Assembly: GCA_028711945.1 (NCBI GenBank)
Contig: JAQTRG010000006.1
Location: forward strand, 1 to 14,626
Origin: Minisyncoccota bacterium
GTDB lineage: Bacteria; Patescibacteriota; Minisyncoccia; Minisyncoccales; Minisyncoccaceae
DNA length: 14,626 bases
Reading direction: 5' to 3'
Positions 2,175 to 11,845 of this stretch are shown piece by piece (position 1 is the stretch's first letter; each line of letters starts with the position of its first letter). Under the pieces are notes generated by a model that saw only the letters and a list, made by a program, of their open reading frames with translations, made no database searches and was not told the DNA's origin. The translations under genes were made by a program, and so were the position numbers.

Positions 2175-2208
2175 TTAAAAAATTTGTTTAGTGTTTCTAT
2201 AAAGAGTG

Positions 2209-2280
2209 TGATCCCAACCGGAGTCGAACCGGTGTTATTAGATTGAGAATCTAACGTCCTAACCACTAGACGATGGGACC
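2209..2280 (-). tRNA. tRNA-Glu (anticodon CTC)
   Basis: On the minus strand a complete 72-base cloverleaf can be drawn. The acceptor stem is GGTCCCA/TGGGATC with one G-T pair. The D arm is GTCT-AGTGGTTA-GGAC, the anticodon stem TTAGA/TCTAA with loop TTCTCAA, and the T arm ACCGG-TTCGACT-CCGGT; the discriminator is A. The anticodon at 2245-2247 reads CTC, for GAG codons. The base pattern is that of bacterial tRNA-Glu. The 3' CCA is not encoded (CAC follows the discriminator base) and must be added by nucleotidyltransferase. It sits 28 bases after the ftsI stop, so it is probably cut from the division-gene transcript. Confidence 0.97.
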
Positions 2281-8836: not shown

Positions 8837-9034
8837 ATGATATTTGAGGAAGAGGTAGAGGAAATTAAACTTTTTAACGACGAAGACGATTCTTGCGACT
8901 CTGATTATGATGAAAATGACGATGACGATGATGACATTGATGACGATGACGATGATGACATTGATGACGATGACGATGATGACATTGATGACGATGAAGA
9001 AGACCCCGCACAAATCGATTATAATGAAGAATAA
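8837..9034 (+). CDS. Small poly-aspartate protein with 24-base internal repeats
   Basis: The 65-residue protein is almost entirely acidic. It begins MIFEEEVEEIKLFNDEDDS, then has aspartate runs broken by single isoleucines (DDDDDDID repeated), and ends DPAQIDYNEE. I know no family for it. The ATG has no Shine-Dalgarno, but the gene has a perfect-consensus promoter in front and an intrinsic terminator behind, which supports it being expressed. Possible roles are an acidic tail protein that mimics nucleic acid, binds cations or binds basic proteins; these are guesses. It is divergent from the Clp-like operon and shares its palindrome. Reading frames on the opposite strand here (VIVIVI or HRHRHQC repeats) are antisense artefacts. 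Confidence 0.7.
   Translation: MIFEEEVEEIKLFNDEDDSCDSDYDENDDDDDDIDDDDDDDIDDDDDDDIDDDEEDPAQIDYNEE
8918..8989 (+). repeat. Three perfect tandem 24-bp repeats inside the poly-aspartate gene
   Basis: Units at 8918-8941, 8942-8965 and 8966-8989 are identical, each encoding DDDDDDID in frame (five-GAY block, ATT, GAT). Copy number can change without shifting the frame. Identical codon choice in all three copies points to recent duplication rather than selection on protein alone. Confidence 0.97.
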
Positions 9035-9856: not shown

Positions 9857-9862
9857 AGCAAA

Positions 9863-9890
9863 GAGCACCCCTTCGGGGTGTTTTTGGTTT
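9863..9890 (+). terminator. Intrinsic terminator of the thioredoxin-fold gene
   Basis: AGCACCC and GGGTGTT pair around CTTCG (9871-9875), followed by TTTTTGGTTTTT. It lies seven bases after the stop. Confidence 0.88.
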
Positions 9891-9901
9891 TTATAGCGTT
9901 C

Positions 9902-9930
9902 TTGACAAGATTATATTAATATAGTATATA
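9902..9930 (+). promoter_or_regulatory. Promoter of the candidate large noncoding RNA
   Basis: TTGACA (9902-9907, perfect), 17-bp spacer, TATATA (9925-9930). It comes right after a terminator and before a region with no ORF, so it should start a noncoding transcript near 9937. Confidence 0.65.
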
Positions 9931-9936
9931 AATATT

Positions 9937-10653
9937 AGTTATTAATAATGACTATTCAGTGGCTTACTTTAACCATATATCACAAGTATTGTTAAAGTAG
10001 GTCATTTGATAGCAAATAAGCTGTAGGTGACCAAGTAAGCGTTGAATATTTAAACCCAGGTTTTGCTACTCTGGGGGTGGACATTCCGAACCTATAAGTT
10101 AGAACGAACGGTGCTCGCACGTCTCTAGTTGCTGATGATTACTCGATGACGAGACGCAAGCAAATGCACCAAACCGTGTGGCTTTTGCTGAGGAGCTTTA
10201 GAAGATTTGGGAAGTTGAATTAGGCTGGAGCAAACTTCATCTCCCCCTAGATTCCTTTCCCCGTAACTGATAAGCAAAGCCCGTACTGCCAACTGTCCCT
10301 TGCTGAAAGGGTTTGAAAAAACGATGCTTTAACAGGCTTTCGTTCAGGATCTATCGTCCGTAGGGCTTTAGATCATTAAAGTGTACAGCTTATGAATATC
10401 TTCATAATTTGAAAGAGTTCGAAACAGATTGTTTCTTGCCATCTTTTATTCCTGGGAACAACTCCTTTGTTTAGGAGGTCGTGAAGAAAAGCGACTTACC
10501 CGAAAGGATTGCTAGCCTACTTTAGTAGCCTAGCCTAGGTGGTAGAATGAGAACTACTTCAAGTATATGAAGAAAAAGAGGTATCCTGCTGACTGCGAGA
10601 TTGCACAATGATGCATCCACTATCAGACTAGGCTCTACCTCTTTTACCTTTTT
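9937..10653 (+). ncRNA. Candidate large structured noncoding RNA (about 720 nt), class unknown
   Basis: No ORF above 60 codons exists on either strand, base composition is richer in G and C than the flanks, and stems are dense. Clear pairings are 9965-9973/9991-9999 (9 bp, extendable to 13), 10004-10008/10013-10017, 10055-10059/10071-10075, and 10110-10114/10166-10170 enclosing 10120-10125/10151-10156. Further ones are 10211-10216/10233-10238, 10297-10301/10307-10311, 10348-10353/10369-10374, 10390-10396/10401-10407 (7 bp, loop TATC), 10462-10466/10473-10477, 10511-10515/10530-10534 around 10517-10520/10525-10528 with a C-C mismatch, 10557-10561/10568-10572, and 10574-10583/10636-10645 (10 bp). 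The last helix is followed by ACCTTTTT. Signatures of RNase P, tmRNA, SRP RNA and group I/II introns are missing. Known giant RNAs (ROOL, GOLLD, OLE, HEARO) cannot be excluded by eye. Confidence 0.6.
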
Positions 10654-10659
10654 ATAAAA

Positions 10660-10683
10660 CAAAAAACTCCGCTTTCACGGAGC
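10660..10683 (-). terminator. Intrinsic terminator of rplJ-rplL (possibly bidirectional)
   Basis: CTCCG (10667-10671) and CGGAG (10678-10682) form the stem with a 6-base loop. On the minus strand it is followed by TTTTTTG. It is 10 bases past the rplL stop. In the plus direction the hairpin is followed by CTTTGTGCTTTT, so it may also back up the end of the noncoding RNA. Confidence 0.82.
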
Positions 10684-10692
10684 TTTGTGCTT

Positions 10693-11103
10693 TTATTTAA
10701 GCTCAACAGTTGCACCTGCTTCTGTAAACTTCTTTTTGATTTCTTCAGCTTCTTCTTTTTTAACTTCCTCTTTGATTGTTTGAGGAGCAGAAGCAATTGC
10801 ATCAACTAAATCTTTAGCTTCTTTTAGACCTTTTTGTGTTAGGTCTCTTACAACTTTAATTACTTCAATCTTTTTTTCGCCAGCGCTTGTTAGTACAACG
10901 TTGAAAGAAGATTTTTCTTCAACAGCAGGACCAGCAGCGGCAACAGGAGCAGCAGCCATCATTTGAGGAGCAGCTGATACGCCGAATTTCTTTTCTAGAA
11001 CCTTTACCAATTCAGCTAGGTCTAGAACTGACATCTTTTCTACTTCTTCTACTAACTTTTTGAATTTCTCAGGAACTTCTACGATTTCTATTTCTTCTGC
11101 CAT
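10693..11103 (-). CDS. rplL: 50S ribosomal protein L7/L12
   Basis: The 136-residue bL12 stalk protein recruits and stimulates translational GTPases. The N-terminal dimerisation helices include [20 protein letters not shown] (22-41). An Ala/Pro-rich hinge follows (about 44-62), and the C-terminal domain has [20 protein letters not shown] (78-97), the GTPase-contact region. It is somewhat longer than the usual 120-128 residues because of an acidic N-terminal extension and an insertion near 105-120. It follows rplJ by 78 bases with no Shine-Dalgarno. A strong hairpin lies in the gap. Assignment secure. Confidence 0.97.
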
Positions 11104-11703: not shown

Positions 11704-11714
11704 ATTTTTGTATT

Positions 11715-11737
11715 AAAAAATCTGTGATTCACACAGA
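11715..11737 (-). terminator. Attenuator-like terminator hairpin in the rplJ leader
   Basis: Minus strand TCTGTG (11732-11737), loop TGAAT, CACAGA (11721-11726), then six Ts (11715-11720), ending just 12 bases before the rplJ ATG. Its 5' arm is also the 3' arm of the L10-leader closing helix, so the two structures exclude each other. Confidence 0.6.
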
Positions 11738-11802
11738 CAAGAGAAAACAATAGTATATTGCTTTATCCTCGGTAGGACTTATTAATGCCTACTGTCTGTG
11801 GA
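11730..11802 (-). promoter_or_regulatory. Ribosomal protein L10 leader (autoregulatory RNA)
   Basis: Read on the minus strand, the leader has the arrangement of the known L10 leader: CCACAGACA, a GTAGG/CCTAC stem (11788-11792/11772-11776) with TTAAT in its loop, then the conserved CCGAGG just after CCTAC, and a closing strand TGTCTGTG. CACAGACA/TGTCTGTG (11793-11800/11732-11739) is an 8-bp closing helix. A further hairpin CAATA-TAC-TATTG lies inside. Known L10 leaders bind the L10(L12) complex and lower rplJL expression. I recognise the pattern by eye only. Confidence 0.75.
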
Positions 11803-11817
11803 TTTATTTATATTTTG

Positions 11818-11845
11818 ATTATACTCAATATTATTAATCTGTCAA
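11818..11845 (-). promoter_or_regulatory. Perfect-consensus promoter of rplJ-rplL
   Basis: Minus strand TTGACA (11840-11845), 16-bp spacer, TATAAT (11818-11823). Both hexamers are exact. The -35 lies inside the last codons of the upstream DJ-1/PfpI gene. Transcription would start about 10 bases before the L10 leader. Confidence 0.82.

Follow-up and report, generated by a model that had tools for sequence, protein, structure and literature searches.

Large noncoding RNAs are few in bacteria, and their functions are poorly understood. Rfam holds families for tmRNA, group I and II introns, and HEARO. It also includes ROOL, GOLLD, and OLE, and GOLLD is presented as a large noncoding RNA with one conserved part and another that is much less so (PMC12286853). 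In GOLLD the conserved part is the 3' one; descriptions of this RNA come from phages and prophages, where tRNA islands are often close by. Among leader elements, boxA (consensus GYTCTTTAANA; PMC5725501) is used in rRNA and before CRISPR arrays, where a long untranslated RNA has a boxA-type element just past its promoter (PMC7862264, PMC10250234). Leaders served by LoaP-type NusG paralogues carry a UNCG-type hairpin as the LoaP target (PMC12691694).

The RNA described here resembles each of these systems in part. It is large, as GOLLD is, and its family has one conserved part; however, that part is at the 5' end, no phage or tRNA-island context was seen, and there was no Rfam match. ROOL and OLE are of similar length, structured, and noncoding, but there was no Rfam match to them, and no feature in common was found. 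The boxA-type element just past the promoter recalls the rRNA and CRISPR leaders, whereas the present family adds a conserved 24-bp hairpin and a putatively competing strand (strand C), its transcript belongs to neither of these two groups, and the window's own boxA is degenerate. If the 5' hairpin recruits an antitermination factor, it would act much as the LoaP leaders do, which differ in their UNCG-type target.

The locus between the thioredoxin-like gene and rplL

The window (the whole stretch of 14,626 nt that was analysed) very probably contains a gene whose product is a long, untranslated RNA, a member of an RNA family of tiny Patescibacteria. We infer both of its ends, which place the gene at roughly 9937-10653. 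It lies between a thioredoxin-like gene (trx, identified by a Pfam match below the cut-off) and rplL (ribosomal protein L7/L12), tail to tail with the latter. The features are as follows.

9902..9930, plus strand: promoter TTGACA-17-TATATA, read from the sequence; TTGACA also precedes the leader in the other nine family members
9938..9948, plus strand: boxA-like leader element GTTATTAATAA, a weak copy (7/10 consensus positions, p = 0.41 alone)
9954..10010, plus strand: conserved 24-pair hairpin of strand A (9954-9973) and strand B (9991-10010); two-sided changes at 13/24 pairs in ten sequences
9959..10067, plus strand: stretch that aligns with G013b, a short member of 167 nt (local alignment score 66, 0/100 shuffles)
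10023..10033, plus strand: strand C (GTAGGTGACCA), A-like and able to pair with strand B (p = 0.049 and 0.063 in the window; 0/1000 for nine members)
10068..10645, plus strand: body, structured and noncoding, with no relative found (z -3.72, 0/60 shuffles; best body match 2/100, with G018c)
10574..10653, plus strand: 3' helix (10574-10583/10636-10645) and T run (10649-10653), read from the sequence as the presumed RNA end

TTGACA (9902-9907) and TATATA (9925-9930) are separated by a 17-nt spacer, and a terminator-like site is located upstream at 9861-9885; both were found where the preliminary description had placed a promoter directly after the terminator of another gene. A promoter scan gave four promoter-like sites against 2.0 expected, and the TTGACA site was not among them because the scan requires T as the final base of the second hexamer. 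The 3' helix is perfect over 10 bp and is followed by TTTTT at 10649-10653, also as described.

The statement that about 800 bases lack an ORF was borne out by the analysis. No ORF of at least 60 aa was found between the flanking genes, the longest ORF overlapping the RNA had 55 aa on the minus strand, and the longest open run of the sense strand was 41 codons, with 492/500 shuffles at least as long. This closed sense strand supports the noncoding reading. The composition was likewise less AT-rich than the surroundings, the G+C content being 0.41 in the RNA, 0.43 downstream of the hairpin, and 0.33 in the whole window. The RNA folded better than all of its shuffles (z -3.84; 0/20 as good). Elsewhere in the window, a 65-aa ORF consisting mostly of aspartate repeats was observed in simple-repeat DNA (8837-9034, plus strand), as were an ordinary ribosomal-protein leader (L10_leader, RF00557, 49.2 bits; 11706-11819, minus strand) ahead of an rplJ-like gene and a tRNA-Glu (anticodon ctc; 2208-2280, minus strand).

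A covariance-model search with Rfam 15 gave no family match inside the RNA at the gathering score; therefore, none of the ordinary classes named in the preliminary description was found. ROOL, GOLLD, and OLE had neither a gathering-score match nor any match up to E 10 in 9860-10720. The models of RNase P RNA, tmRNA, group I and II introns, and HEARO did not match the RNA, and ARAGORN found no tmRNA. RF00010 was present in 25 of the 30 genomes searched in a related set and was not found in the window's genome (G000), from which it may simply be missing because the assembly is 86% complete. Relaxed Rfam matches reached at best E 0.12 for the window RNA and E 0.011 for the RNA of another member, G007; they were rejected because they fell far short of the gathering scores and came mostly from microRNA models placed on the long hairpin. 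The RNA family is new in the sense that it is absent from Rfam 15 and from the literature searched, as judged by titles and abstract openings.

A family with a common 5' module

By blastn against 60 genomes and against the 247 genomes of the order, the window RNA matched nothing longer than 41 nt apart from itself. Relatives were reached via synteny instead, by comparing the trx/rplL site across the bacterial family. Sixteen genomes had trx and rplL on one locus; three others gave no rplL match and two were outside the search. The gap between the genes was 38-90 nt in 11/16 genomes and long in the other five: 297 nt (G013), 331 nt (G018), 616 nt (G007), 825 nt (G002), and 842 nt (G000). TTGACA, a leader, and a long hairpin were present in all five long gaps, and the site carries family members in four genera. 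In a further record (L096), the gap was 2345 nt with a 666-aa ORF, and the hairpin was not matched there.

A model of the hairpin from the five trx/rplL sequences (R1) was searched over 247 genomes and found five new places (G016, G018 C39, G013 C1, G018 C25, and G004) on the RNA strand with E 2.9e-13 to 3.4e-6, each with TTGACA and a leader upstream of the hairpin. Eleven genomes matched R1 at E 0.05 or better, four of them with weak hits alone, which were left uncounted. These weak R1 matches, in G068, G059, G022, and G008 (E 0.005-0.044), showed no TTGACA and leader upstream by eye and were rejected, as was a match in G002 C3 (E 0.006) to a second model, R2, which was built from all ten sequences. 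R2 matched 7/21 family genomes at ten places, where its scores hold by construction because these places are its training sequences; the window's genome was the sole representative of its genus among the genomes of this search. It matched 2/383 genomes in a class sample, both from the window's bacterial family, and 3/379 in a phylum sample, namely the window, G930, and G652; these large searches used strict filters and may miss weak members. No R2 match was found in 57 further loci.

The presence of the family is patchy, with three copies in G018 and two in G013. Five of the ten members occupy the trx/rplL site, tail to tail with rplL. Three (G013b, G016, and G018b) are flanked by a Kazal-domain gene on one side and the gene of a MiaB-like radical-SAM protein on the other, with one more ORF between these genes at the G018b site; the assignment is Pfam-based for both genes of G013b and the Kazal gene of G016 and by likeness for the rest. 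G018c is located near a Clp protease gene, and the G004 member between two ORFs. At L127 (G018 C25), a second TTGACA promoter-like stretch was observed after the terminator of the short member and before the Clp protease gene. With the 3' ends of several members placed by eye, lengths range from 167 to 729 nt, and from 193 to 729 nt at the trx/rplL site alone; of two members at the Kazal/miaB site, G016 measures 496 nt and G013b 167 nt. In several short members, a terminator-like hairpin closes the RNA shortly past the module. The terminator ends could be aligned between G016 and G018b (0/300 shuffles).

In the five-sequence alignment, 90.8% of the cells of the 24-pair A:B hairpin were paired, with two-sided changes in 12/24 pairs, and sliding the partner strand lowered the pairing to 34-56%. 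With ten sequences, two-sided changes were observed at 13/24 pairs and 92.7% of the cells were paired. A measure of further pair types was no better than in shuffles (278/500 for five sequences and 343/500 for ten). The preliminary description had looked to homologues with compensatory changes for its stems in general; such changes were found for the hairpin at 9954-10010, and the other stems are without comparative support.

The ten leaders, scored with A or G allowed at position 8 of boxA, jointly fit the element, with none of 5000 shuffles and none of 300 permuted consensuses as good. The core G[CT][TC]C was located 4-22 nt after the -10 box in nine leaders, the exception being the window; the leader starts were set by eye because the -10 boxes were. 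Tested singly, 2/10 leaders were significant, and the window had p = 0.41. Among rRNA leaders of the order, a boxA within one mismatch was present in 13/30 (last 300 nt; 1.5 expected), and the rRNA leader of the window's genome carries TGTTGTTTGAAA. These sequence comparisons support a boxA in the ten-member set; the support does not extend to the weak copy in the window.

The 50 nt downstream of the hairpin contain a second pairing partner for strand B, namely strand C. The summed B:C energy of nine members was -124.6, vs -79.6 (sd 6.8) for shuffled sequences, and 0/1000 shuffles were as good; G018b was left out because of an N gap. In the mirror control, in which strand A was paired with its upstream 50 nt, 811/1000 shuffles were as good. 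Singly, all nine members fell below the shuffle mean, and four or five reached p < 0.05 in two tests; the window alone gave p = 0.049 and 0.063. C may be a duplicate of A and, whether or not it is, A and C are predicted to compete for B. The A:C pairing also passed the summed test (1/300) and was given less weight because C resembles A. Two of the nine members tested, G007 and G016, showed pairing of the strand around A with the 3' part (p = 0.002 in each case). Such a closing helix was rejected as a family-wide feature, being significant in 2/9 members, and is absent from the window RNA (p = 0.73). In the predicted fold of G002, a helix just outside A closes the RNA, and in that of G016 strand B is paired with C, and the outer half of A with the 3' part. 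The modelled G016 fold is what a switch from the nascent to the finished RNA would look like. The window itself has the TTGACA promoter, the leader, the covarying A:B hairpin, and strand C, the leader and the B:C pairing being weak singly.

Bodies and distant matches

By local alignment, the 5' part of the window RNA was similar to six of the nine other members (0/100 shuffles each), one of which is the member with the N gap. No such similarity was found with G007, G002, and G004, whose putative homology is based on the hairpin, position, and leader. The window body, folded from 10014 on, gave z -3.72 with 0/60 shuffles as good. All nine bodies folded below the shuffle mean, from z -0.73 (G013) to -5.72 (G016), with terminators included where present; the folding was unremarkable for G013 (46/200 shuffles as good) and weak for G007 (3/60). 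Against seven other bodies, the window body had no clear relative (2/100 with G018c and 34 to 96/100 with six others) and, because no body relative was found, its stems are without comparative support. Among the 28 pairs of eight bodies, G002 and G007 have a 32-nt motif in common (0/100). Blastn with the G007 RNA returned itself and pieces, the longest of 91 nt at 71% identity, and the G002 RNA returned, besides itself, no piece above 49 nt. Seven of the eight other loci of the G002 search were inspected by eye, resembled coding or AT-rich chance matches, and were rejected. Long open runs were observed in G002 (185 codons on the other strand, 1/500 shuffles) and G007 (92 codons, sense, 23/500), while the sense run of G004 was shorter than chance (492/500 at least as long).

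As judged by sequence, then, the family members have a common 5' module and then diverge. Of the structured class of about 720 nt put forward in the preliminary description, a new noncoding RNA stands, and one conserved architecture of that size is not supported, the 5' module alone being common over lengths of 167-729 nt.

Two matches lie further off in Patescibacteria, in genomes whose proteins are labelled Candidatus Buchananbacteria (G930) and Candidatus Saccharibacteria (G652); both have a boxA with 10/10 positions. In G930, a promoter, this exact boxA, a hairpin, and strand C (p = 0.034) are located downstream of a ribosomal L1 gene and precede a 321-aa ORF, for which a protein search returned only the ORF itself. 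The homology of G930 rests on this architecture because its hairpin gives nearly the same score on either strand (42.5 and 42.3 bits). In G652, boxA and a hairpin stand ahead of a 177-aa ORF, for which the protein search gave one relative in addition to itself; the membership of G652 is doubtful because strand C is lacking (p = 0.355). Neither ORF had a Pfam match. At the loci L133 (1480-2596) and L134 (932-1600) of two distant Patescibacteria, boxA and a long hairpin precede orphan ORFs with a G+C content of 0.55-0.60, vs 0.38-0.39 upstream or outside.

Interpretation of the family

Comparison of the members shows a conserved 5' module, in which the promoter is followed by the boxA-like leader, the A:B hairpin, and strand C, and bodies that differ and are mostly noncoding. 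We give about even chances to the explanation that the window's noncoding RNA gene is free-standing and belongs to a family outside Rfam, with a conserved 5' module, a member-specific body, and boxA antitermination. The module would drive transcription of the RNA, and boxA, by analogy with rRNA operons and CRISPR arrays, would recruit NusB/S10; the loaded elongation complex would then resist termination and complete the long structured untranslated RNA. A:B would pair first in the nascent RNA and could be rearranged by strand C or, in some members, by the 3' part. The body may act as a structural or regulatory RNA on some target.

One giant structured RNA class, in which the fold is conserved throughout and the body has diverged in sequence past detection, would agree with the window body folding better than 60/60 shuffles, the site kept in four genera, and the 32-nt motif common to G002 and G007. 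We consider it unlikely, however, given lengths of 193 to 729 nt at the trx/rplL site and a window body without a clear match among seven others. Somewhat less likely again is that the module is the 5' leader of protein genes, the bodies being decayed or fast-changing orphan genes. The ORFs of 321 and 177 aa behind boxA and hairpin in G930 and G652, with no relative or one besides themselves and with a G+C content above their flanks like the bodies, point in this direction, as do the long open runs of G002 and G007. Against it, the sense runs of the window and G004 are shorter than chance, several short members terminate soon after the module, and the bodies fold well.

An action of the RNA on the convergent rplL, by antisense reading or by insulating both units, would suit the five members that are tail to tail with this gene; with the other five located elsewhere and a trx-rplL spacing of just 38-90 nt in 11/16 genomes, we hold it to be very improbable. 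The chance of a mobile or phage-derived RNA element, which the multiple copies in G018 and G013 and the patchy presence might indicate, appears smaller still. Matches were found in 57 phage and 161 plasmid records, none covering 80% of the query, and among the matches listed they were pieces of at most 7% of the query. In viral contigs, a trx alignment search found none, and three RNA pattern scans gave one match, inside a 69-aa ORF. The trx/rplL site, moreover, is kept in four genera.

For the free-standing RNA gene, a conserved 5' head with fast-changing bodies separates the selected part, namely expression and folding control, from the part that turns over. The setting is one of reduced genomes, of whose RNA genes little is known. 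If the boxA reading is true, the use of antitermination extends to a long RNA of another kind than rRNA and CRISPR arrays. Tentatively, and with considerable doubt, the family may represent a modular RNA platform, in which a Nus-antiterminated head with a three-strand switch would drive fast-changing, interchangeable structured RNA bodies, and elsewhere in Patescibacteria perhaps orphan proteins; it would then add to rRNA and CRISPR arrays another case in which boxA is used for noncoding transcripts.
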